Below are positions 1,778 through 13,104 of a DNA stretch of 64,000 nt, one piece after another. A program made the translations under genes and the position numbers. Each line of letters starts with the position of its first letter. The stretch's first letter is position 1. Below the pieces are notes generated by a model. It did no database searches. It was not told the DNA's origin and saw nothing but the letters and a program-made list of their open reading frames with translations. Origin of the DNA: a virus. The stretch spans positions 1-64,000 of IMG/VR virus record IMGVR_UViG_3300036828_000413. One strand, given 5' to 3'.

Positions 1778-2184
1778 GTAGCCCGCTCGACGCGGCGATC
1801 AGGATCGGAGAGGAGGCAGCCAGCCGGGCGATCGCCCTGGCCAACCGGGAGCGCCGGCTGAAGTGGTGGCTCTATCGGATCAAGTTTCTGCTGAAGACCG
1901 GGCGGGCGCAGAGCGCGATCAACACGGCGGACCTGGCCCTGGAGTTTATGAACAAAAGAGAGGAGACTGAGATGGCCCAGGGACCTCCCCACACGTGGGT
2001 CCACGCGCTGCACCAGGTGACCGGCCTGTTCGCAGTCAAGGGCCAGAGGATGACCGAGCAGGACAGGGCCGTAGTCAGGACCATCATGAGGGACGTACTG
2101 GCGGAGATGGAAGATGATTCGAACTGGGTACAGTTTCAGACTGGCCGTGGGCCACGTGCAAACGATAGCGAGCCGTTTGTCTGA
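1774..2184 (+). CDS. Hypothetical protein overlapping the polymerase gene, 136 aa
   Basis: ATGA-coupled start at 1774. Helical N-terminal half; the second half could also be started internally at ATG 1972, which has its own GAGGAG ribosome site. The 3' end overlaps the DNA polymerase reading frame by about 70 bases in another frame. No domain recognised; the overlap suggests translational coupling to the polymerase. Confidence 0.55.
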   Translation: MSSPLDAAIRIGEEAASRAIALANRERRLKWWLYRIKFLLKTGRAQSAINTADLALEFMNKREETEMAQGPPHTWVHALHQVTGLFAVKGQRMTEQDRAVVRTIMRDVLAEMEDDSNWVQFQTGRGPRANDSEPFV

Positions 2185-4942
2185 GCTGGGCTGGCCGGCG
2201 GCCCCGATCGCAGACCGGTCCTCCACATTCGGGTTCGTACCCTGGACCAAGGCCTGCAAGGACGCAAACCTTAGACCAGTCTACGGCGTGGAGCTCGGGG
2301 TCAGCGCCAACTGGGGCGAGAAGCGGCCGAGGATCGACAACTGGGTGTTCCTCGCTAAGAGGTCTCTTAGCGACTTACACGCACTGGTCAAGACGGCCAC
2401 GTCGGCCTCGAACTCCAAGCTCCCAGTGCTGTCCTACGACGAGGCGATGGCCGCAGAGGGCGTGTTCAAGATCGCCCAGGAGCACGTGGACCTGGACTAC
2501 GCGGACTTCGATGTGGCCGACGTATTCATGGGGATCACGCCAGCGACGCCCTTAGCTACCATTAAGGCTGCTAGAGCACGTGGCGCCTGGTTCGTCGCCC
2601 ACCCAAGAAACGTGTACCCACGCACCGAGGACATGGAGCTGTACCGGGTGATGCTGGGCCGGTACTTCGCCTCAACCCAGACCTACCCGCAGCACATTAC
2701 CTCCGACGAGGAGCTGCGCTCCGCGTTGGTGTTAACCGGCGTGGATGTGTCCGAGGCCATAGAGCGCCGAACCACAATCTTAAAAGATTGCGTTGCAGTC
2801 CTCGAGACGGCCGAGCTCCTGAAGTACCACAGCCCCCAGACCCTCCGCGAGTTGTGTTGGCAGGGGGCGGCGACGCTGGGCGTGGACCTGCAGCACCCTG
2901 TCTACGTCGAGCGGCTAGACAGGGAGCTGTCGCTCATCGCCGAAAAGAAGTTCGAGGACTACTTCTTCATCATCGCGGACCTGGTCGCGTGGGCCAAGCC
3001 GCGCATGGTGGTGGGCCCAGCAAGGGGCAGTTCGTGCGGCTCATTGGTCTGCTACCTGCTGGGCATCACTGCCATCGATCCCATCCCGCACGGCCTGATC
3101 TTCGAGCGGTTCATCGACATTACCCGCGCGGACCTCCCGGACATCGACTTGGACTTCTCGGACGCCAACCGGGACCAGGTGATCGGCTACGCCGAGGCCA
3201 AGTATGGAGAGAGGGTGGCCAGGCTGGCCAGCGTCGCCATCTTCCAGCCGAAGTCCACACTGGCCAGGGTCGGCGCCGCGCTCAAGATACCCACGTGGCA
3301 GGTGAACAAGGTGGCCGAGACCGCGATCAAGCGCAAGATGGGCGACTCTCGCAAGAGCAGCACCATCGAGGACACGCTGGTCGAGACGGACGCAGGGAAG
3401 GAGATGCTGCGGGACTTTCCCGAGGCCATGATCGCCAGCAGGTTCGAGGGCCACCCGGACCACTCCGGCATCCACGCCGCCGGGCTCGTCGTGACAGACA
3501 AGCCGGTGACCACCTACGTCGCGGTGGACATGCGCAGCAAGACTGCGATGTGCAACAAGTACGACGCCGAGGCGCTGAACCTCCTGAAGATCGACGTACT
3601 CGGATTGACCCAGCTCTCGATCTTCGAGCGGATACTGGAGCTGATTGGGCAAGAGCCGAGGAGTGGCTGGCTGGAGAAGATACCGACCAACGACCCCGCG
3701 GCCTTCGAGGTCCTGAACAAGAACCGCTACTGCGGCATCTTCCAGTTCGATGCCAACGCCATGCGGGGCCTGGCCCGCCAGATTCAGTTCGACTCGCTCG
3801 ACGATATCATCGCGGCCACGGCCCTGGTCAGACCTGGGCCACTGGCCTCGGGATCGACCCAGCAGTGGGTGGATAGACGATCGGGAAATTCGATCGTCAC
3901 CTACCCGCACCCCATGCTCCAGGAGTACCTCGAGGAGACGCTCGGCGTGCCCGTCTACCAGGAGCAGGTCTTGAAGATAGGGCGCGAGCTCGGGGACCTC
4001 TCCTGGGCCGACGTCACGGCCCTGCGCAAGGCGATGAGCAAGAGCCTCGGCGCCGAGTACTTCTCCCAGTACGGGGACAAGTGGAAGGCCGTGGCAATCT
4101 CGAAGGGCTTGCCAGCAGACGTTGCCAACAAATTCTGGGATGACATGTGCCAGTTTGGGGCGTGGGCATTCAACAAGGCCCACTCGGTCAGCTACGCGTA
4201 CGTCTCATACTGGTGCTGCTGGCTGAAGGCCCACTACCCGGTGGAGTTTGCCGCAGCCACGCTGGACGCAGAGGCCGCGCCCGAGCGACAGATCGCGCTT
4301 CTGCGAGAGCTCGCCGAGGAGGGGATCGGATACGTCCCGGTGGATCCCGAGCATAGCACAGACAAGTGGGAGGCGCGGGAGGACGGCAGGCTACTCGGAC
4401 CCCTGACCAACATCAAGGGCATCGGACCGAAGAAGCTGGCCACCATCGTAGAGGCGAGGAGGCTGGGCTCGCCCCTGCCGACGGGGCTGACCAAGCTGCT
4501 CGACTGCCCCAAGACGGCGATCGACAGCCTCTATCCCATTCGGGACAGACTGAAGACACTCTATCCCAACGGACTAGAGGAGGTCAACATCCACTCCACG
4601 CCCACCCCGGTCTCATGCTGCCAGCCCGGCGTGGCTGGTCTGAGGGTGGTCTTGGTCACGCCGACCCGCCTCCTGCCCAAGGACGAGAACGAGCCGGTCA
4701 AGGTGGCCAAGCGCGGGGGCAAGCTGCTCGACGGGCCCACGGCCGCGCTGAACATGTTCGTCAGGGACGATGGGGACGAGATGTTCGCCAAGATCGGGCG
4801 GTGGAAGTTTCCTACGATCGGGCGCACGGTCCAGGAGGAGGGCAAGCTGAACAAGGTGATCTGGGCGCTGAAGGGCATGGTCCCGGAGACCTTCCGCATG
4901 CTGGACGTCCACATGGTTCGCAAGCTGGGGTATCTGGAATGA
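2114..4942 (+). CDS. dnaE: DNA polymerase III alpha-like subunit (C-family polymerase)
   Basis: 942 aa replicative polymerase, shorter than the roughly 1160 aa of bacterial DnaE. Order: N-terminal PHP region (residues 1-200), palm with GPARGSSCGSLV near 300 and the catalytic PDIDLDF near 341, fingers (FQFDANAMRG near 540, FNKAHSVSYAYVSYW near 686), a helix-hairpin-helix around IKGIGPKK near 767, and a short tail. The PHP part lacks the usual HxH start (it reads GYSFRLAVGHVQ), so it is probably catalytically dead, which fits a separate DnaQ-like exonuclease at 606-1154. The C-terminal OB and clamp-loader binding regions seem reduced. It should synthesise phage DNA, perhaps with host clamp and loader. 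Confidence 0.95.
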   Translation: MIRTGYSFRLAVGHVQTIASRLSELGWPAAPIADRSSTFGFVPWTKACKDANLRPVYGVELGVSANWGEKRPRIDNWVFLAKRSLSDLHALVKTATSASNSKLPVLSYDEAMAAEGVFKIAQEHVDLDYADFDVADVFMGITPATPLATIKAARARGAWFVAHPRNVYPRTEDMELYRVMLGRYFASTQTYPQHITSDEELRSALVLTGVDVSEAIERRTTILKDCVAVLETAELLKYHSPQTLRELCWQGAATLGVDLQHPVYVERLDRELSLIAEKKFEDYFFIIADLVAWAKPRMVVGPARGSSCGSLVCYLLGITAIDPIPHGLIFERFIDITRADLPDIDLDFSDANRDQVIGYAEAKYGERVARLASVAIFQPKSTLARVGAALKIPTWQVNKVAETAIKRKMGDSRKSSTIEDTLVETDAGKEMLRDFPEAMIASRFEGHPDHSGIHAAGLVVTDKPVTTYVAVDMRSKTAMCNKYDAEALNLLKIDVLGLTQLSIFERILELIGQEPRSGWLEKIPTNDPAAFEVLNKNRYCGIFQFDANAMRGLARQIQFDSLDDIIAATALVRPGPLASGSTQQWVDRRSGNSIVTYPHPMLQEYLEETLGVPVYQEQVLKIGRELGDLSWADVTALRKAMSKSLGAEYFSQYGDKWKAVAISKGLPADVANKFWDDMCQFGAWAFNKAHSVSYAYVSYWCCWLKAHYPVEFAAATLDAEAAPERQIALLRELAEEGIGYVPVDPEHSTDKWEAREDGRLLGPLTNIKGIGPKKLATIVEARRLGSPLPTGLTKLLDCPKTAIDSLYPIRDRLKTLYPNGLEEVNIHSTPTPVSCCQPGVAGLRVVLVTPTRLLPKDENEPVKVAKRGGKLLDGPTAALNMFVRDDGDEMFAKIGRWKFPTIGRTVQEEGKLNKVIWALKGMVPETFRMLDVHMVRKLGYLE

Positions 4943-6377: not shown

Positions 6378-6830
6378 CAGACTTCTTGAAATCCTAAATT
6401 CCAGCGAAAACAGGCCCAAACCAGGGTCTTTACTTTCTTATTCTTTTACTCTATATATAGCCCTGAGGTTAGGTAGCTCGATAGCAAGTTTTACCTCTCC
6501 TCCATAGGGCTTCTCCCTGCGGCTTCGGCTCACTTTACGAGGGGGATAGAAAAGGGACTAGGCGCGGATGAGGAACCTCTCCCCTAGTCTTCAGGGACCA
6601 ATAAAATGGCCAGCCCGGAGTACTCTAGAGCAAGCGCGGGGCGCGCCATAACGGCCCTGCGAAAAATCTGGAGCCATCCCGCACGAAGGCGACTTTGTGA
6701 AGGTAGTAAGGCGCGAGCCGGTTCCGAATGCCCCCGAGGCCGTAGTAGGAGCTACCCTAGCAATTTCCGCAGTGACCAGGGTTTCTGTGAAGGCGGCTCT
6801 TTTATGGGTGCGCGCATTTTTCCGAATTCA
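6378..6830 (+). other. Non-coding gap with AT-rich promoter-like stretch
   Basis: No convincing gene. Bases 6416-6466 are unusually A+T rich for this genome (TTTACTTTCTTATTCTTTTA then CTATATATAG) and could hold the promoter for the following early run. A 7-bp inverted repeat GACTAGG/CCTAGTC lies near 6563-6595. No tRNA-like fold was seen. An open frame across 6606-6932 has no good start or ribosome site and runs through the leader. Confidence 0.4.
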
Positions 6831-6915
6831 TCGACCCTGCCCTCTGCGTCCATTAACGCAGAGGGTAGTACGATGCATTTCGCATCGCATAAGCAAGCAA
6901 AAAAGGAATATCCCC
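6831..6915 (+). promoter_or_regulatory. Tandem-hairpin leader, copy 1
   Basis: TCGAC box at 6831-6835; stem 1 CCCTCTGCGT/ACGCAGAGGG at 6840-6849 and 6856-6865; stem 2 CGATGC/GCATCG at 6871-6876 and 6882-6887; AAGCAAGCAA at 6891-6900; ribosome site AAGGA; start codon 28 nt after stem 2. It shares long identical blocks with the copy at 9674-9747, but the stem 1 sequence differs while still pairing. Confidence 0.75.
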
Positions 6916-7008
6916 ATGGCTACCGAACTTGATCTCGACCTGATCCTTGAGCTCCTCGCAGAGGGCGTCATCCTCGAGGGGATCGACGCAGAGGAGGAGG
7001 CTGACTAA
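6916..7008 (+). CDS. Small acidic protein, 30 aa
   Basis: First gene behind leader copy 1, with AAGGA 8 nt before the ATG. Strongly acidic, Leu/Ile-rich amphipathic helix (LDLDLILELLAEG), ending EEEAD. Its charge resembles small phage proteins that bind host factors or mimic DNA, but that is speculation. It overlaps the next start as TAATG. Confidence 0.5.
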   Translation: MATELDLDLILELLAEGVILEGIDAEEEAD

Positions 7009-7076
7009 TGAAATACGTCAACCGACTGCTCGACGCCCTGCTCCTTCCGTTCATGCAGGGCACCCACCGGCGATGA
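7008..7076 (+). CDS. Very small hypothetical protein, 22 aa
   Basis: TAATG-coupled to the acidic peptide and ATGA-coupled to the next gene. Sequence MKYVNRLLDALLLPFMQG then basic residues; amphipathic. Only the coupling supports it. Confidence 0.35.
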   Translation: MKYVNRLLDALLLPFMQGTHRR

Positions 7077-7150
7077 GCACGACCACCTTCCTGCTCATCC
7101 TCGCCCTCGTCTTCCTCTTCCTCTTGTCATCACTGAAAGGTTCAACATGA
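7073..7150 (+). CDS. Single-pass membrane peptide, 25 aa
   Basis: ATGA-coupled start; one hydrophobic helix (TFLLILALVFLFLLSSL) fills most of the peptide. ATGA-coupled to the following gene. Probably an inner-membrane miniprotein. Confidence 0.45.
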   Translation: MSTTTFLLILALVFLFLLSSLKGST

Positions 7151-7458
7151 AATACGCAAATGAAATGGGCTACTCGGACGTCGAGCCCCACGAGGTCGTT
7201 CGCCAGGTCTCCGATAAGTGCCTGGAGATACGAGCAATGAAGGCTGACCGAGACCCCTCGTGGAAGCCAGAGTTCATCCCCGGCGGGTTCGCCGGTCACT
7301 GCACCAACCAGAGCTCACAGCGCTGGGTGATCTCACCCAACGCGAGCCAGCCGACCGTTCGCATTCGACTGGGCAAGAATGGCAAGTGGAAGGACAGGAA
7401 CGGCAATCGCTACGTCCTTTCCGACCATCCCATAAAGTTCTACGACTACAACTTCTAA
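7147..7458 (+). CDS. Hypothetical protein, 103 aa
   Basis: ATGA-coupled start. The N-terminal half is helical and charged; the C-terminal half is a beta-rich segment (VRIRLGKNGKWKDRNGNRY) with many aromatics. No recognised domain. Followed after 9 bases by the next gene. Confidence 0.65.
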   Translation: MKYANEMGYSDVEPHEVVRQVSDKCLEIRAMKADRDPSWKPEFIPGGFAGHCTNQSSQRWVISPNASQPTVRIRLGKNGKWKDRNGNRYVLSDHPIKFYDYNF

Positions 7459-7467
7459 GGAGACCAC

Positions 7468-7632
7468 ATGACTAGAATGCAAAAGATCGCCCACCACCGG
7501 GATATGGCCAAGCTCGCCCTGAAGAGGGCGAGACGGGCCATCTCCCAGTCAGAGATCGTAAGGCACCTGAACGCCCACACGAGGCACAAGCGGATCGCGC
7601 TCAACCTCGCCCTCTATGGCATCGAAGTCTGA
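7468..7632 (+). CDS. Small basic helical protein, 54 aa
   Basis: Start at ATG 7468 behind AAGGAG. Lys/Arg/His-rich, all helical (MAKLALKRARRAISQSEIVR), no Cys. It may bind nucleic acid; no family recognised. Ends just before leader copy 2. Confidence 0.55.
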   Translation: MTRMQKIAHHRDMAKLALKRARRAISQSEIVRHLNAHTRHKRIALNLALYGIEV

Positions 7633-7639
7633 GAATTTT

Positions 7640-7718
7640 CCGACGGTGCGCTGGCTAGTCCCAGCGCACAACGGAGCATTCCGCTCCCGGTCCAAGACCG
7701 CAAATCAGGAGAACTACA
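7640..7718 (+). promoter_or_regulatory. Tandem-hairpin leader, copy 2
   Basis: CCGAC at 7640-7644; stem 1 GTGCGCTGG/CCAGCGCAC at 7646-7654 and 7661-7669; stem 2 GGAGC/GCTCC at 7673-7677 and 7683-7687; a small extra stem GGTC/GACC at 7689-7692 and 7696-7699. The AAGCAAGCAA linker is absent in this copy. AGGAG at 7707-7711; start codon 31 nt after stem 2. Confidence 0.65.
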
Positions 7719-8027
7719 ATGGCTGCCACTACCAAGAAGACGACCAAGACCTCGGCCCGCAAGACGAGCAAGAAGGCTCGCAAGACTGCCAAGACCACTA
7801 AAGCGGTCACGCGCAGCAGGGTCGTGGATGCCGCGCGTGACTCAAAGATCATCGCGGCGCTGAAGAAGGGCGTGACCACCTCCCAGTTCCGAGATGACCT
7901 GGGCGTCTACACTTCGGGCTCCATGCTGAGCAACCTGAAGCCGGTTGCCAAGCGCCACAACCTGAAGATCAAGCAGGAAGGCACCAAGGGCAAGTACGTC
8001 TACAAGTTCGTCGGCTCTGGCAAGTAA
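7719..8027 (+). CDS. Histone H1-like basic protein with winged-helix-like C-terminus
   Basis: 102 aa. Residues 1-35 are almost only Lys, Ala, Thr, Ser and Arg (TKKTTKTSARKTSKKARKTA), like the tail of bacterial H1-type DNA-binding proteins. Residues 40-102 look like a small winged helix (SKIIAALKKGVTTSQFRDDL, then LKIKQEGTKGKYVYKF as the wing). It probably binds DNA without strong sequence preference. It follows leader copy 2 and is closed by a strong terminator. Confidence 0.7.
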   Translation: MAATTKKTTKTSARKTSKKARKTAKTTKAVTRSRVVDAARDSKIIAALKKGVTTSQFRDDLGVYTSGSMLSNLKPVAKRHNLKIKQEGTKGKYVYKFVGSGK

Positions 8028-8049
8028 GTCGGGACCTCCTTTCACCTTC

Positions 8050-8090
8050 CTGCTCTGTGGGGACCACGCCCCACAGGGCAGAACTTTTTT
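8050..8090 (+). terminator. Factor-independent terminator
   Basis: CTGCTCTGTGGGG at 8050-8062, loop, CCCCACAGGGCAG at 8069-8081, then AAC and six T residues. A long GC stem plus U-tract is textbook. It separates the H1-like gene from leader copy 3, so that leader either follows a promoter in a very short gap or is reached by read-through. Confidence 0.85.
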
Positions 8091-8113
8091 GAAGGGAGAC
8101 CCTATGGATTATT

Positions 8114-8190
8114 CCGACACTGCACTCCCCCAGCGGGAGTGCAGCACGGAGCAATCACGCTCCACTAAGCAAGCAAAAAGGACTACGACT
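8114..8190 (+). promoter_or_regulatory. Tandem-hairpin leader, copy 3
   Basis: CCGAC at 8114-8118; stem 1 TGCACTCCC/GGGAGTGCA at 8121-8129 and 8135-8143; stem 2 GGAGC/GCTCC at 8148-8152 and 8159-8163; AAGCAAGCAA at 8167-8176; start codon 27 nt after stem 2. It lies 24 nt after the U-tract of a strong terminator. Confidence 0.75.
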
Positions 8191-8391
8191 ATGTCAATCA
8201 TCGCATTCATTCTGGCCATCATCTACGTCGTCTGGCTCAACCGGCTGATCAGCTTCGGGGTCAAGACGGCCATGCGGATCGCCACGGCCACCGAGGCCTC
8301 CGCTCGCAACACGGCCATCCTGGTCGAGATGGCCCAGGCGAGGGCCGGTCACCTGGGCTACGACGCAGTGGCAAGGGAGCTCGCCCAATGA
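8191..8391 (+). CDS. Membrane-anchored small protein, 66 aa
   Basis: Start at ATG 8191, right behind leader copy 3; longer in-frame starts (8104) would translate the hairpin leader and are rejected. One N-terminal membrane helix (IIAFILAIIYVVWL), then a helical cytoplasmic tail. Function unknown. ATGA-coupled to the next gene. Confidence 0.6.
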   Translation: MSIIAFILAIIYVVWLNRLISFGVKTAMRIATATEASARNTAILVEMAQARAGHLGYDAVARELAQ

Positions 8392-8552
8392 CCAATCAAG
8401 AGTACTGGGATTTCAATCTCACCCACAAGGGGCGGGCCAAGATGCTTACGCTGCTTGGCCGCGCCCTCGGCTTCCAATTCAAACAGTGGAGTGACCTGCC
8501 TGAGGACCTCAGGCAGCAACTCGAAATCCTATGGAGGAGACACATATCATGA
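8388..8552 (+). CDS. Small hypothetical protein, 54 aa
   Basis: ATGA-coupled at both ends. Helical, with Trp residues (EYWDFN and QWSDLPEDLRQQLEILW). No family recognised. Confidence 0.55.
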   Translation: MTNQEYWDFNLTHKGRAKMLTLLGRALGFQFKQWSDLPEDLRQQLEILWRRHIS

Positions 8553-8791
8553 AGATCACCTACGAGAACAAGGACCAACTCGACGTCCACGAGTACGAGA
8601 CCCACAAGTGGTCCGCAGAGGCCTCCACGCTCGGCCTCAAACCGGGCGAGTGGCCCCGCACCATAGAGACCACGCTCGGCAATGGCATGGTGTTCATCGC
8701 CCAGCGCCGGGAGGTCCGAGACGGGGACCTCCTGTGGGTCGACTACTTCCAGGGCAACGGCTGCATCAGCCTTCGCATCTACAACGACTAA
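8549..8791 (+). CDS. Hypothetical protein, 80 aa
   Basis: ATG 8549 has GGAGGAG upstream and overlaps the previous stop. Predicted beta-rich (IETTLGNGMVFIAQRREVRD then GDLLWVDYFQGN). No recognised domain; looks like a small folded protein. Confidence 0.65.
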   Translation: MKITYENKDQLDVHEYETHKWSAEASTLGLKPGEWPRTIETTLGNGMVFIAQRREVRDGDLLWVDYFQGNGCISLRIYND

Positions 8792-8805
8792 AGGAGGAGT
8801 GACCA

Positions 8806-9063
8806 ATGATGAAGATAGGAGACGTGCTGGCAATGAAGAATGGATCCACGAGGGCAAAGTACTGGATGTCCCCGGTCCCGGTGTTTGATGACTTCGGGTC
8901 CAAGATCGAGGACGTCATGTACGACGGCAAGACGAGGATGGGACCGTGGGCCCTGATGACCCCGGCCTCATGGCTCGCCTACGGCGTGGGCCGGACCGGC
9001 ACGGGCTGCGGCCAGAAGTACAAGAAGGTCCCCGGCGGGAAGTGGCTCAAGGTGGAGGGATAG
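8806..9063 (+). CDS. Hypothetical protein, 85 aa
   Basis: Start behind AAGGAGGAG. Contains GDVLAMKNGSTRAKYWMSP and a Gly-rich centre with one Cys; ends GKWLKVEG. May start at the second Met. No recognised family. Confidence 0.6.
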   Translation: MMKIGDVLAMKNGSTRAKYWMSPVPVFDDFGSKIEDVMYDGKTRMGPWALMTPASWLAYGVGRTGTGCGQKYKKVPGGKWLKVEG

Positions 9064-9064
9064 G

Positions 9065-9301
9065 ATGACTGAAGACCGAACTACCGAACTGGCCGTGCTC
9101 AACCTGGTTAGCGCCATGGACAAGCGGCAGCGACTCGAGCTTCTGCGGGAGGTCGTTGATAACATGGCCGAGCGCGGGGACGCGGAGGAGATGGCCGACT
9201 TCGTCCTGGCCCAGCTGGGCGGGGACGCGGTCCAGGTCTGCTCAGAATGGCTGGGCATCAAGACGACCGTCGAGGACTGGCTGAACAGGAGGACTAAGTG
9301 A
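9065..9301 (+). CDS. Hypothetical helical protein, 78 aa
   Basis: ATG one base after the previous stop, with GGAGGGATAGG upstream. Acidic, all-helical (LVSAMDKRQRLELLREVVDN); one Cys. GTGA-coupled to the next gene. Function unknown. Confidence 0.6.
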   Translation: MTEDRTTELAVLNLVSAMDKRQRLELLREVVDNMAERGDAEEMADFVLAQLGGDAVQVCSEWLGIKTTVEDWLNRRTK

Positions 9302-9456
9302 CCAAGAAGAAACTGAAGACCAGAGCCGAGATGGTTCACTTCCTCTACGGGCGAGGAATGAGCTGCGAGGAGCTGGTCGTGATGACCGACCTGGAGATCA
9401 AGGACGGCTATGAGTTCGCCCTTGAGATGGATAAGAAGGACAGGAGAGCCAAGTGA
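9298..9456 (+). CDS. Small hypothetical protein, 52 aa
   Basis: GTG start in a GTGA overlap, behind AGGAGG. Basic N-terminus, acidic C-terminal half (CEELVVMTDLEIKDGYEF). GTGA-coupled to the next gene. Confidence 0.55.
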   Translation: MTKKKLKTRAEMVHFLYGRGMSCEELVVMTDLEIKDGYEFALEMDKKDRRAK

Positions 9457-9668
9457 CACCGAGAGAACTAGAGGAGATAGCCCGGGGTGCGGTCGAGCGC
9501 AACCTCGGGGACGTGGCCGCAGACTACGAGAGCGAGGAGGCGGCCGCCGACGCCATCTACGACGAGGCCTACACCCTGGCCTATGACGCACTGCACGACG
9601 CGGGGGTGGACGATCCCACCGCCCGCAGGATAGCCCAGAGCGTGGCCCAGTGCTACGCCCAACCGTAA
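9453..9668 (+). CDS. Acidic helical protein, 71 aa
   Basis: GTG start in a GTGA overlap. Very acidic and Ala/Asp/Tyr-rich (DYESEEAAADAIYDEAYTLA), helical, with a single Cys near the end. No family recognised. Leader copy 4 begins immediately after it. Confidence 0.6.
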   Translation: MTPRELEEIARGAVERNLGDVAADYESEEAAADAIYDEAYTLAYDALHDAGVDDPTARRIAQSVAQCYAQP

Positions 9669-9673
9669 GTCCA

Positions 9674-9747
9674 TCGACCCTGCCCTCCCCTTGCCGGAGG
9701 GCAGTACGATGCACTTCGCATCGCATAAGCAAGAAAGGAACTATCAC
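9674..9747 (+). promoter_or_regulatory. Tandem-hairpin leader, copy 4
   Basis: TCGAC at 9674-9678; stem 1 TGCCCTCC/GGAGGGCA at 9681-9688 and 9696-9703; stem 2 CGATGC/GCATCG at 9707-9712 and 9718-9723; shortened linker AAGCAAG; AAAGGAA; start codon 24 nt after stem 2. Confidence 0.75.
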
Positions 9748-10404
9748 ATGGCACCAAGAAAGAAGAAGGAGGTGGCGATTATCCCGCCTCAACAACCCGT
9801 AGAGACACTCGTCTCTTGGGACCAAGCGATCAAGCGAGGCAAGGAATGCCTCGTCAGGGCTAGCGACATCCAGTGGGAGCTGGGTGAGCTGGCCGACCGC
9901 ATAGAGCCAAAGTACGGAGACGAGACCCTAAAGAAGTTTGCGGAGGAGCTAACGGTTAGTCCGCTTACATTGAGAAACTATCGAGCCGTTTTCCGCGCAT
10001 TTCCACAAAAAAACCTACGTAGGTTTAATTCATTTGGGGTCTGTGCAGTCTTCGCATCTCAAGAGGATCGTCTCAAGCTCGTAGCCAAGAGGACATGGAC
10101 TGTGACCGAGGCGAACAAATTTATCAAGGCCCGTAAAGAGAAGTTACTGGAGAAGGCAAACAACGAGCGAGGCCCAGACACAGTAGAGGAAGAAGATGAG
10201 CAAACAGAAAATCCAGAGGAGAGGTGGCAGAGGAGCTTGAGCAATTACACGGGAGACATCTTGGCCATGACCAGCCTCTGGAAGAAGCAGTTTGGAGACT
10301 GGAGGAAGTTCAAAGTGCCCTCCGACTTGATGAAGCTCGCATTACAGGCCGAGGAAATATGGTCTGAACTTGTACACGAACTTAGGGAGAAAACAGATGG
10401 CTAG
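9748..10404 (+). CDS. Putative DNA-binding protein with helix-turn-helix
   Basis: 218 aa. Basic start (MAPRKKKE), then a segment KKFAEELTVSPLTLRNYRAV (about residues 70-90) that fits a helix-turn-helix, a Lys-rich middle helix and an acidic stretch (TVEEEDEQTENPEE). It may be a regulator or a partition-like protein; no family can be named. Start chosen at ATG 9748 because the longer frame would translate the leader. A/T use is higher than in its neighbours, suggesting a different history. Confidence 0.6.
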   Translation: MAPRKKKEVAIIPPQQPVETLVSWDQAIKRGKECLVRASDIQWELGELADRIEPKYGDETLKKFAEELTVSPLTLRNYRAVFRAFPQKNLRRFNSFGVCAVFASQEDRLKLVAKRTWTVTEANKFIKARKEKLLEKANNERGPDTVEEEDEQTENPEERWQRSLSNYTGDILAMTSLWKKQFGDWRKFKVPSDLMKLALQAEEIWSELVHELREKTDG

Positions 10405-10948
10405 ACGAAAGTCCTACACGAGAATTTACTATGGTCCAGAGGGCCACGAGCGAGACCTGTGGTGGACCGTAGAGGTAAGGGACGCCACCAAGGCGGTCAA
10501 GATCAATGGAAAATTGATCCACGCCATAGAGGGCCAAGCGGGTACTACCGTTGGATGCTCTATGTCGAACACTGCAGTGGATTTGGACAACGTGGGAGAG
10601 TTTCCTCACTCGGTCTATCTGGCTGCCTTTACTCGCAGTCGAGCCTTCGTAGTCGACAAGATCAAGAATGGCGCTCCGAGTAGTGCGGTCAAATACAGAC
10701 ACAGCTACGGAGACATTATCGATCTGAACGACGGTAAGGCTCTCGAGCGTATAGCTAAGAAAGACCCATCAATCATAGAGCGAGAGTTTGTGTTGATGGT
10801 TCCGAAAAAGCGCACTCCAAAATCTCTCCTGCCTGGACCAGGATTGACCAAGACAGGCATCACCACCAAGGCATTCGTTCCTCGAGGCGCGCTCAGGCGA
10901 GCTCAGAAGGCTGGACTTATCAGCCAGGGAGTAAGGATTAGAAAATGA
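10397..10948 (+). CDS. Hypothetical protein, 183 aa
   Basis: ATG 10397 overlaps the end of the previous gene by 8 bases. Mixed alpha-beta, with a Lys-rich C-terminus (KAFVPRGALRRAQKAG). The region TVGCSMSNTAVDLDNVGEFP suggests a folded core. Like the gene before it, codon use is somewhat more A/T-rich than the rest of the run. No family recognised. ATGA-coupled to the next gene. Confidence 0.6.
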   Translation: MARRKSYTRIYYGPEGHERDLWWTVEVRDATKAVKINGKLIHAIEGQAGTTVGCSMSNTAVDLDNVGEFPHSVYLAAFTRSRAFVVDKIKNGAPSSAVKYRHSYGDIIDLNDGKALERIAKKDPSIIEREFVLMVPKKRTPKSLLPGPGLTKTGITTKAFVPRGALRRAQKAGLISQGVRIRK

Positions 10949-11148
10949 AGAATGAAGACGAGGGCAGGCTGTGGGAGGTCACGCTGATGGCCAGCGTGTT
11001 TGCCAACCGCCCCAGCCTTACCAAGCTGGTCCGGGTCCGCGCCTGGACCGGGGCTGGGGCTGAGCTCAAGGCGGTCGAGCTGAACCCAGACTGGAGACCA
11101 GTCGTCCGCCACACCAAGATCGTAGAGCAACCACTAAAGAGGAGGTAA
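10945..11148 (+). CDS. Small hypothetical protein, 67 aa
   Basis: ATGA-coupled start. The sequence LWEVTLMASVFANRPSLTKL reads like a beta-alpha unit. Basic end (PLKRR). Unknown. Confidence 0.6.
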   Translation: MKNEDEGRLWEVTLMASVFANRPSLTKLVRVRAWTGAGAELKAVELNPDWRPVVRHTKIVEQPLKRR

Positions 11149-11154
11149 AGAGTC

Positions 11155-11364
11155 GTGACTTTAATAGCGAAGTACCCAACGAAGCAGGCGGCCAAGGAGG
11201 CCGTCGGCCAGAAGCTGAAGTACCAAGAGACGAGCCTGTTCGGAGCTGAGTATCGAGATGACGGCCGGCTCACCGTTGCCAACCGCCCGCTCATAACGGG
11301 ACTGGGCAGGGAGTGGTTCGGCATCATAACGATGAGAAACGGCAGGATAGTCAAGGTCGAGTAG
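11155..11364 (+). CDS. Small hypothetical protein, 69 aa
   Basis: GTG start behind AGGAGG. Begins MTLIAKYPTKQAAKEAVGQK; ends with a beta hairpin (GIITMRNGRIVKVE). The length and pattern suggest a compact fold. Unknown. Confidence 0.6.
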   Translation: MTLIAKYPTKQAAKEAVGQKLKYQETSLFGAEYRDDGRLTVANRPLITGLGREWFGIITMRNGRIVKVE

Positions 11365-11368
11365 TTCA

Positions 11369-11459
11369 TCGACGGGACGGCCGGGAGCTGGGGTCATAGG
11401 ACCGGCCGTCCAACGATGCACTCCCGCATCACCAAGCAAGCAAGACAGGAGACTAGAGT
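11369..11459 (+). promoter_or_regulatory. Tandem-hairpin leader, copy 5
   Basis: TCGAC at 11369-11373; stem 1 GGACGGCCGG/CCGGCCGTCC at 11375-11384 and 11402-11411 with a long 17-nt loop; stem 2 GATGC/GCATC at 11415-11419 and 11426-11430; AAGCAAGCAA at 11434-11443; AGGAG; start codon 29 nt after stem 2. Stem 1 has a sequence unlike the other copies but pairs over 10 bp. Confidence 0.75.
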
Positions 11460-11657
11460 ATGGCTAAGGCGACCACGAACAACGACAACGGCAAGTCCAT
11501 ATCGGTCAAGATGACATTGGCCAAGACGACCAAGGGCACGTACGTGTACAACTCCGTAGACAGCTCGGCTGCCATCAGGTCGGTGTACATCAACAAGGAT
11601 GGGATGCCGGACGGGGCCTGGCAGACGATCCGCATGAACGTCGTGGAGGAGAAGTAG
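11460..11657 (+). CDS. Small hypothetical protein, 65 aa
   Basis: First gene behind leader copy 5. Polar start (MAKATTNNDNGK), then a beta-rich body (GTYVYNSVDSSAAIRSVYIN). It resembles small single-sheet phage proteins; function unknown. Confidence 0.6.
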   Translation: MAKATTNNDNGKSISVKMTLAKTTKGTYVYNSVDSSAAIRSVYINKDGMPDGAWQTIRMNVVEEK

Positions 11658-11658
11658 C

Positions 11659-11856
11659 GTGCACTGGAAGGTCAGACTAGACGACCAGAATGGCCGGTTC
11701 TGGCTGGAAGAGGACCGCAAGTGGTCCGACTCTACCGACCGCGCCCAGAGGTTCACCACGGAGAGGGAGGCCGACCTGGCCGCATCCAGGGCCAGGGCCT
11801 CGGCCGCAAAGTCCGAGGATTGGTTTCCCAAGATCAGGGTGGTGGTGTTCAAATGA
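11659..11856 (+). CDS. Small hypothetical protein, 65 aa
   Basis: GTG start one base after the previous stop. The reading WKVRLDDQNGRFWLEEDRKW looks like a beta hairpin, followed by an Ala/Arg helix. ATGA-coupled to the next gene. Unknown. Confidence 0.55.
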   Translation: MHWKVRLDDQNGRFWLEEDRKWSDSTDRAQRFTTEREADLAASRARASAAKSEDWFPKIRVVVFK

Positions 11857-12041
11857 TCAACGAGGAGGGACAGCAGTGGCTCGCAGAGGCGGCCTATGAG
11901 CACTTTCGAGAAAGAGTTACCAGAGAGCAGATGGCCGACATGATCGACATGCTGCTCTCGGACAAGGAGTCATCACCGCTGCTGAAGAAAGTGGTCCTTC
12001 GCATGGCCATGATCTTCAGCTCCAAAGAGGGACACTCGTAA
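11853..12041 (+). CDS. Small helical protein, 62 aa
   Basis: ATGA-coupled start. Helical and acidic (EQMADMIDMLLSDKESSPLL). No motif recognised. Confidence 0.55.
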   Translation: MINEEGQQWLAEAAYEHFRERVTREQMADMIDMLLSDKESSPLLKKVVLRMAMIFSSKEGHS

Positions 12042-12058
12042 CGAAGGGGACTGGGATT

Positions 12059-12268
12059 ATGGACGACCGGACTGCGACGACGACTGTGACTAGAGAGCAA
12101 CTAGCCGAGGCCATCGAGCTGGCCGAGGCGAGACTGAAGCAACTGCACAACTGGGCATTGACCAGGCAGATAGCCCGGCTGAGAGACCTCGAGGCCAGGC
12201 TCCTGGAGCTGGAGGCCTGGGAGGCAGAGCCCAGGCTGCTCAGGCCTGGGGAGTACTCGGGACTATAG
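12059..12268 (+). CDS. Small coiled-coil protein, 69 aa
   Basis: Begins MDDRTATTTVTREQLAEAIE; residues 12-60 form one long heptad-like helix rich in Leu, Glu and Arg. Likely oligomeric. Ends directly before leader copy 6. Confidence 0.55.
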   Translation: MDDRTATTTVTREQLAEAIELAEARLKQLHNWALTRQIARLRDLEARLLELEAWEAEPRLLRPGEYSGL

Positions 12269-12275
12269 GATTGTA

Positions 12276-12351
12276 TCGGGCCTGCACTCCCTCCGGGGAG
12301 TGCAGTGCGATGCAATTCCGCATCAATAAGCAAGCAAAGAAAGAGACGACA
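12276..12351 (+). promoter_or_regulatory. Tandem-hairpin leader, copy 6
   Basis: TCGGG (variant box) at 12276-12280; stem 1 TGCACTCCC/GGGAGTGCA at 12283-12291 and 12296-12304; stem 2 GATGC/GCATC at 12309-12313 and 12320-12324; AAGCAAGCAA at 12328-12337; start codon 27 nt after stem 2. Stem 1 is nearly that of copy 3, stem 2 that of copy 5. Confidence 0.75.
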
Positions 12352-13104
12352 ATGAGAAAGGTTTTGATGACTACCGTCGCGGCAGCGTCCCTCCTCTGCG
12401 GAGGGGCCAGTGCTGAGACCCTCGTGGTCCAGGCCAACGACGGATACATGAACATCCGTACGGGTCCAGGGACGAACTACTCCCTGGTCGGGACGGTGCC
12501 CAACGGCAAGAGGATCAGCTGGTCGGGTCCGGCCACCTGCGTCAGGCGGCAGGATGGGATCGCCGGCGCTGACTGGTGCAAGGTCAACGTGTACAATGGC
12601 CAGCTGGCCCCGGTCGGGAGCTACTACAACCAGACGGGCTGGGTCTCTCGTGCAGGCCTCATGCCGGTCTACGAGGACGAGACGCCCGCCCATCCCCGGG
12701 CGAGCGCTGATCCTTTGGGCATAGACAACCAAGACGCGCTCGTCTGCGACCGTCCCCAGATCATGCTGGGCGACGACCGCGATCCCAACCCGGTCACGTG
12801 GATCGAGGTCTCGTATGTCCAGGCGGACCACGCCTGGCGCATCTTCCACCACTTCCAAAATGGTGGCGTAGTCTCCAGGTCGGAGCAGTACGCGATCGTC
12901 GATGAGACCAACCCGAGCAAGTTCCAGTGGAGTGGAAGCCTAAACCGCAATCGCTCCCTGTACATGGTCGGCGAGGTGAAGCGCGACGGGTACTACTACG
13001 AGTGGCTCTACGACCGCTCGCACGGCAACCGGCTGGATATGTCCACGCGGTCCAAGTGCCGCCTGGCCCATCCCGAGCTGGCCATACCCCACCCTGCATC
13101 GTGA
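12352..13104 (+). CDS. Exported protein with bacterial SH3 domain
   Basis: 250 aa. Signal peptide MRKVLMTTVAAASLLCGGASA with likely cleavage after ASA. Next comes an SH3b domain (about residues 25-100) with YMNIRTGPGTNYSLVGTVPN, the usual SH3_3 signature. The remaining 150 residues are Trp/Tyr-rich with Cys pairs and unassigned. It should act in the periplasm or at the wall. An exported protein inside an early-type gene run is unusual and suggests an effect on the host envelope. Start chosen at 12352; the longer in-frame start would translate the leader. Confidence 0.75.
   Translation: MRKVLMTTVAAASLLCGGASAETLVVQANDGYMNIRTGPGTNYSLVGTVPNGKRISWSGPATCVRRQDGIAGADWCKVNVYNGQLAPVGSYYNQTGWVSRAGLMPVYEDETPAHPRASADPLGIDNQDALVCDRPQIMLGDDRDPNPVTWIEVSYVQADHAWRIFHHFQNGGVVSRSEQYAIVDETNPSKFQWSGSLNRNRSLYMVGEVKRDGYYYEWLYDRSHGNRLDMSTRSKCRLAHPELAIPHPAS

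Follow-up and report, generated by a model that had tools for sequence, protein, structure and literature searches.

A putative structured RNA with two mutually exclusive folds at gene borders of tailed phages

Introduction

RNA elements that recur beside phage genes have been described in several systems, and we compare with them a leader that is present in six copies in a 64,000-nucleotide stretch of viral DNA (positions 1 to 64,000 of the 71,760-base IMG/VR record IMGVR_UViG_3300036828_000413; hereafter, the window). In this leader three strands, A, B and C, are arranged so that B can pair either with A, enclosing a stem P1, or with C, as hairpin P2. The two predicted pairings are mutually exclusive and both covary, and the leader appears to represent a family of structured RNAs that has not been described and that unrelated tailed phages share.

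Several described systems come close to this leader. The R1.1 processing site of phage T7, 60 nt long with a 4/5-nt internal loop, is cut into fragments of 47 and 13 nt (PMC6121014); RNase III cleavage can stabilise or destabilise a message, depending on the cutting mode, and 5′ untranslated hairpins were reported to prolong mRNA half-life (PMC6993053). The put sites of phage HK022 act in cis and consist of two adjacent stem-loops within ~70 nt, located downstream of the early promoters and present twice per genome (PMC9378689). In cluster K mycobacteriophages, the ESAS are repeated inverted repeats of 17 bp with a fixed consensus, placed just before the starts of some non-structural genes and tied to a 13-bp start sequence, GGGATAGGAGCCC; their function is unknown (PMC3203893).

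Three strands and two exclusive folds

An earlier note on this DNA had described six leaders made of two tandem hairpins behind a (T/C)CGAC box. All six were found at the places given there, on the + strand, and no further copy was found in the 71,760-base record. The box, which had been taken as a sequence motif, instead forms the 3′ end of a strand whose sequence complements stem 2 and its loop: this strand, A, pairs over 9-11 positions with B (the 5′ arm and loop of stem 2), enclosing P1, and B pairs alternatively with C (the 3′ arm of stem 2) as P2. The element begins ~10 nt farther upstream than had been supposed, and its parts are distributed in the window as follows.

6822 to 6833, + strand: copy 1, strand A (CCGAATTCATCG), pairing with B at 9/11 positions
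6837 to 6868, + strand: copy 1, stem P1, 13 bp
6871 to 6886, + strand: copy 1, hairpin P2, made of B (6871-6881) and C (6882-6886); start codon at 6916
7631 to 7642, + strand: copy 2, strand A (GAGAATTTTCCG), overlapping the upstream stop TGA (7630-7632)
7646 to 7669, + strand: copy 2, stem P1, 9 bp
7672 to 7687, + strand: copy 2, B and C, hairpin P2 (GGAGC/GCTCC); start codon at 7719
8105 to 8116, + strand: copy 3, strand A (TGGATTATTCCG)
8120 to 8144, + strand: copy 3, stem P1, 10 bp, with a compensated sequence difference from its ortholog in contig L004
8147 to 8163, + strand: copy 3, B and C, hairpin P2 (GGAGC/GCTCC); start codon at 8191
9665 to 9676, + strand: copy 4, strand A (GTAAGTCCATCG), with the upstream stop TAA (9666-9668) inside
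9680 to 9704, + strand: copy 4, stem P1, 9 bp
9707 to 9722, + strand: copy 4, B and C, hairpin P2 (GATGC/GCATC); start codon at 9748
11360 to 11371, + strand: copy 5, strand A (AGTAGTTCATCG), with the upstream stop TAG (11362-11364) inside
11375 to 11411, + strand: copy 5, stem P1, 10 bp, with a large apical loop
11414 to 11430, + strand: copy 5, B and C, hairpin P2 (GATGC/GCATC); start codon at 11460
12267 to 12278, + strand: copy 6, strand A (AGGATTGTATCG), overlapping the upstream stop TAG (12266-12268) and pairing with B over 11 positions
12282 to 12305, + strand: copy 6, stem P1
12308 to 12324, + strand: copy 6, B and C, hairpin P2 (GATGC/GCATC); start codon at 12352

In these six copies stem P1 measures 9-13 bp, where 8-10 bp had been given, and the gap between P1 and P2 is 3 nt in 6/6, not 2-5 nt; for the distance from stem 2 to the start codon, previously put at 24-31 nt, the upper end stands and the lower end becomes 25 nt. 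The copies score 26-64 bits with the covariance model, which was built with copies 3, 5 and 6 among its members; the left-out copies 1, 2 and 4 reach 34.1, 26.5 and 39.7 bits, with E-values of 3.5e-7, 7.4e-5 and 6.1e-9, respectively, for 1.2 Mb searched.

Box and stem 2 vary jointly, in classes in which TTCCG goes with CGGAG, ATCG with CGATG, TTTCG with CGAAG and TACCA with TGGTG, and the pairing of A extends into the loop of stem 2 (AGT against loop ACT in copies 4 and 5, GGATTG against AATTCC in copy 6). The first 20 copies were picked on P1 and stem 2 alone and are hence an independent test of A:B: duplex prediction returned an identical register in 20/20, at -8.8 to -18.5 kcal/mol, and the mean A:B energy was -11.4 kcal/mol with their own partners versus -7.8 kcal/mol with exchanged ones. 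Among 13 copies picked on P1+P2 alone, 83% of the A:B cells were paired and 6 pairs were altered on both sides, while A:B+P1 was 90% paired versus 33-50% in slid controls. For 40 distinct copies with 6-nt loops, from contigs that are partly related and with P2 having entered the selection of most, A:B+P1 was 86.7% paired (slid versions, 34-48%) and P1+P2 99% (28-50%), the pairs changed on both sides being 8/8 in P1, 7/11 in A:B and 3/5 in P2. The parser used a 5-nt A:B core to choose the spacer, and the clean tests of A:B are the 20- and 13-copy sets; alignment rows were cut back to the outermost 8 bp of P1, since the first MAFFT alignments misplaced copies with long loops. With homologues added, the covariation became stronger, and the earlier proposal of a conserved RNA structure with compensatory change is supported.

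This joint variation bears on one functional reading, a passive hairpin for mRNA stability or insulation in which P1 and P2 alone matter and A:B is a side effect. Every copy does set hairpins just before an open ribosome site, but A covaries with B, even with the P2 loop, in classes that change together, and a side effect would not persist in this way; we consider this reading improbable.

The geometry is constrained unevenly. P1 and P2 are joined by a linker of 3 nt in 50/53 parsed copies and of 4 nt in three, and the 5′ spacer is 1-4 nt; the internal loop between A:B and P1 has 1-4 nt on its 5′ side and 2 nt on its 3′ side in 50/53. P1 and A:B together total at least 17 bp in 50/53 copies. 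The stem and loop sequence of P2 is conserved across unrelated phages (GATGC-RATYCC-GCATC) and that of P1 is not, P1 and its apical loop being free to vary in sequence. The closest contig found (L004/L080/L380, with a polymerase 90% identical) holds orthologs of copies 1, 2, 3, 5 and 6 and one more further along, and near-identical DNA for this region was not found in phage records. Differences in P1 between ortholog pairs are compensated, as in copy 3, where CTGCACTCCC/GGGAGTGCAG is replaced by CTGCACTGGGC/GCCCAGTGCAG with the surroundings kept. These compensated differences are direct evidence of selection on the P1 helix rather than on its sequence.

With ViennaRNA, A:B+P1 is more stable than P1+P2 in 52/53 copies, by a mean of 5.2 kcal/mol, and the two tandem stems first described are one of two exclusive folds, and the less stable one. 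A conserved P2 therefore requires that A be removed or occupied, and the ways open to this are cleavage, a terminating ribosome and a bound factor. A:B should form first, because A is transcribed before C.

Two variations were seen among the copies. A strands of the type GGGTGATCATCG (L006 17138, L073 17358 and similar) have an internal loop in the middle of A:B that could form tandem G-A pairs, with paired ends flanking it, and in L095, L091 and L104 (two copies) a small additional inverted repeat, GGGC...GCCC, lies between C and the ribosome site.

Placement between genes

An upstream stop codon lies within A in 45/53 copies, versus 8% at random positions of the same contigs (a stop was counted when it closed an open frame of 45 or more codons and lay between -16 and -4 relative to the end of A). 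An ATG with a Shine-Dalgarno core follows in 43/53 versus 5% at random, and the opposite strand has none; the start codon lies a median of 20 nt after C. From this placement, therefore, the element is read as RNA, is intercistronic and begins at the end of the preceding gene. A stop codon in A is missing from copies 1 and 3 and from a few others. In most copies the flanking genes leave no space for a promoter, and a sigma-70 promoter scan gave nothing linked to the copies. A stop-codon read-through element was considered and rejected, as stop positions vary and stops are missing at some copies.

Because the stop codon falls in A, a ribosome-driven exchange is the strongest rival of the processing site that we discuss below: a ribosome terminating at the upstream stop would cover A and free B for C, A:B persisting otherwise, and the fold reached would adjust how the downstream gene is translated, loaded with Rho or degraded. 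Both the enrichment of stops inside A and the need, given the default A:B fold, for an event that occupies A speak for such a switch. Its output is nevertheless hard to see, since the ribosome site is about equally free in the two folds (mean unpaired probability of 0.63 vs 0.69, differing by more than 0.2 in 4/53 copies) and the device therefore does not act by hiding it; pairs that would let C act as an anti-Shine-Dalgarno strand, GCTCC with GGAG or GCATC with GGATG, occur in a part of the copies and are not general. The copies lacking a stop in A also speak against it, and the range of stop positions, -4 to -16, may reflect mere compact packing. We regard the translation-coupled switch as unlikely. 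Somewhat less doubtful, though still short of probable, is the broader proposal of a strand-exchange switch common to unrelated phages, set at the stop of one gene and the start of the next, in which either the terminating ribosome or a cut by a nuclease makes B leave A for C; if true, each gene of a polycistronic phage message would report on, or be insulated from, its neighbour.

Transcription termination was also considered. There is no U run after P2, as an intrinsic terminator or attenuator would have; what comes after the element is an A-rich tail, AAGCAAGCAA or AAACAGAG, the former restricted to this phage and its sibling. The only convincing terminator near the copies, a strong one at 8050-8081 in the stretch 8050-8088, lies just upstream of copy 3, and it is, by comparison with the sibling L004, a recent gain or loss, because the orthologous gap there has no terminator although the copy 3 ortholog is present. 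The upstream place of this terminator and its absence in the sibling weaken the put-like antitermination suggested in the earlier note, as does the position of put after early promoters (PMC9378689), the copies mostly lying within ~16 nt of a stop codon. More generally, the P1+P2 tandem hairpin might be a binding site for a phage or host protein, or a put-type antiterminator that modifies RNA polymerase, and the constant 3-nt linker and the P2 sequence shared by unrelated phages, with P1 not shared, would suit that. However, P1+P2 is the less stable fold in all but one copy, the sequence and apical loop of P1 are free, the sole strong terminator is missing in the sibling, and up to 6 copies lie between genes, against the two copies of put per genome. 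We hold this reading to be a little less likely than the ribosome-driven exchange.

The six downstream proteins have no detectable similarity to one another, and the portability of the leader between unrelated genes is likewise supported. Some downstream genes have homologues in other phages, with the element retained (L109:11478 and the gene after window copy 6 are 44% identical). The gene that starts at 12352, after copy 6, encodes an SH3-domain protein with an N-terminus that is signal-like by eye; about a dozen downstream genes encode small proteins with apparent signal peptides, again by eye (for example, window 12352; L006 17570 and 18018; L109 11467; L072 13964; L097 3908). An open frame spans copy 3 (8104-8391), with an ATG preceded by GGGAG and in frame with the downstream start; it is probably non-coding, because the frame is not kept in the sibling.

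Distribution among viruses

We parsed 53 copies from more than 25 virus contigs. A covariance model of P1+P2 (model R1) matched contigs with related polymerases as well as many contigs that were first reached solely via an 18- or 17-nt B-loop-C core, with E-values reaching 1e-17. The carriers include phages whose replication and virion genes are unrelated: L375 encodes a primase-helicase pair, L376 a UvrD-like helicase, L379 an HNH endonuclease, and L377 a Mu-type tail sheath, portal and major head protein. The known members are so far all in uncultured or unnamed virus records: model R1 found no real copy in 15 cultured phages (chosen for shared polymerase, primase, sheath or helicase genes, or for weak blastn matches), and short-query blastn against cultured phages gave matches solely within coding genes. 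The weak matches in PaMx25 and VPv62 were set aside, as inspection showed no tandem-hairpin leader.

When matches were selected on the GATGC core, P1 and A:B were in register in 28/41 virus matches versus 4/80 of the bacterial-genome matches listed, the virus core being 18 nt and the bacterial comparison using nearly the same core with an upstream ATCG additionally required. Among those 80 listed matches, inspection yielded no convincing element in bacterial genomes, and the remaining structure was at chance level. Three scans anchored on A and half of B served as a null: none of the 357 new matches listed was convincing, and P1 reached at least 7 bp in 3 of them. A loose descriptor scan without a sequence core was discarded as returning mostly chance matches (146 vs 119 on the two strands). 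Single hairpins are indeed common here and that scan found nearly as many matches on the wrong strand, as would be expected were the leaders chance hairpins of a GC-rich genome; yet the E-values, the difference in register between virus and bacterial matches and the lack of any opposite-strand start codon leave such an artefact a negligible probability, and we consider it already refuted.

In the window, a DNA polymerase III alpha-like gene (2114-4942) lies just upstream of the leader region, itself preceded by a gene for an RNase T/DNA polymerase epsilon-type exonuclease (429-1154; PF00929, 2.3e-17). In L012-L016, L027-L032 and L072, the tblastn spans of the polymerase are ~0.8-1.2 kb longer than the 942-aa query, which suggests that the polymerase genes of these relatives hold an intein or intron.

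A possible self-capping processing site

The reading that we tentatively prefer, at somewhat less than an even chance, is that the element is an RNase III-type processing site of the T7 R1.1 design, in which the 3′ product refolds to shield its own 5′ end with a hairpin. Everything in it beyond the conservation of both A:B and B:C is what we infer. In the intact polycistronic message, the hairpin of A:B and P1 would form first and be the stable state; RNase III of the host, or a comparable nuclease acting on double strands, would cut the internal loop on its 3′ side, as in T7 R1.1, and the cut would remove A, so that B could refold with C. The downstream message would gain a 5′ end formed by a tight hairpin 1-3 nt from the terminus, followed by an open ribosome-binding site, and the element would in this manner divide a long transcript into its genes, each downstream message beginning with a stable 5′ end that does not depend on context.

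Such a site would explain the conservation of both A:B and B:C, the fixed length of the 3′ linker next to a variable 5′ spacer, and the free sequence of P1. A simulated cut at the place matching that of R1.1, in the 2-3-nt linker, leaves B at the 5′ end of the downstream message, paired with C as P2 within a few nt of the terminus, and the simulated 3′ products fold at -3.8 to -11.1 kcal/mol in 53/53 copies. Other observations weigh against it. The helix contains mismatches, A:B being just 78% paired in the 40-copy set, P1+A:B comes to 14-16 bp in three copies, and RNase III preferences vary between bacteria (PMC6121014). In addition, a protein that binds P1+P2 would explain the constant linker and the conservation of the P2 loop just as well, and the position of the stop codon also fits a ribosome-driven switch.

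If the self-capping site is real, nature would have an equivalent of the engineered insulators in which a cleavage site is joined to a 5′ hairpin, and the site would account for the separate expression, in these phages, of genes that share one long transcript. The three-strand covariation is unusually clear and makes the mechanism directly testable, and an element that marks gene borders would aid the annotation of small phage genes.

Comparison with known systems

Attenuators and riboswitch expression platforms resemble the element in having mutually exclusive pairings with a shared strand. The element differs from them in that it has no poly-U after P2, no consistently sequestered ribosome site, no aptamer that we could see and a P1 free in sequence; a translation riboswitch that sequesters the Shine-Dalgarno sequence is discordant with the near-equal accessibility of the two folds (0.63 vs 0.69).

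The ESAS are likewise repeated inverted repeats right before start codons, but an A/B/C exclusivity is not reported for them and no sequence relation was seen. The 13-bp start-associated sequence was found neither at any window copy nor in the inspected tails of other copies, and an identity with ESAS was rejected on that account.

As in put, two adjacent stem-loops (P1 and P2, with a 3-nt linker) can be drawn, although they are not the preferred fold. Whereas put depends on conserved stem contacts to RNA polymerase, suppresses termination through the beta-prime zinc-binding domain and lies just downstream of early promoters, the element occurs in up to 6 intercistronic copies, has a variable P1 and a competing A:B, and begins within 16 nt of an upstream stop in 45/53 copies.

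Searches of Rfam 15 gave no gathering match in the window (chance mir-4018 matches scored 27.5 and 25.5 bits, versus a cut-off of 66) and none up to E=1 in 12 related loci, in agreement with the earlier view that no described family corresponds. A description of such an element was not found in open-access full text, subscription papers being outside the search, and we know of no described RNA family with such an A/B/C exchange at gene borders.

The nearest likeness is to the early processing sites of T7. Four T7 sites, R0.3, R0.5, R1.1 and R1.3, were folded by the same procedure and reproduced a lower stem, an internal loop and an upper stem (the simple search of T7 did not recover R0.7 and R1). 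Like the element, they occur in several copies between the genes of a phage operon and combine a lower stem, a small internal loop and an upper stem of ~10 bp with a free loop; the element has this intercistronic, T7-type anatomy, with a lower stem of ~10 positions, the internal loop and an upper stem of 9-13 bp. No sequence relation is recognised between the two. The T7 sites lack the third strand, and their 3′ products fold at -0.3 to -5.8 kcal/mol and off the terminus, in contrast with the -3.8 to -11.1 kcal/mol of the element, which departs from the T7 type by the exchange hairpin P2 in all copies. By this analogy, the element would work like a T7-type RNase III site, with the anatomy observed and the cleavage predicted; we place it among the intercistronic RNA processing sites or leaders of phages, with a real chance that it stands as a new class.

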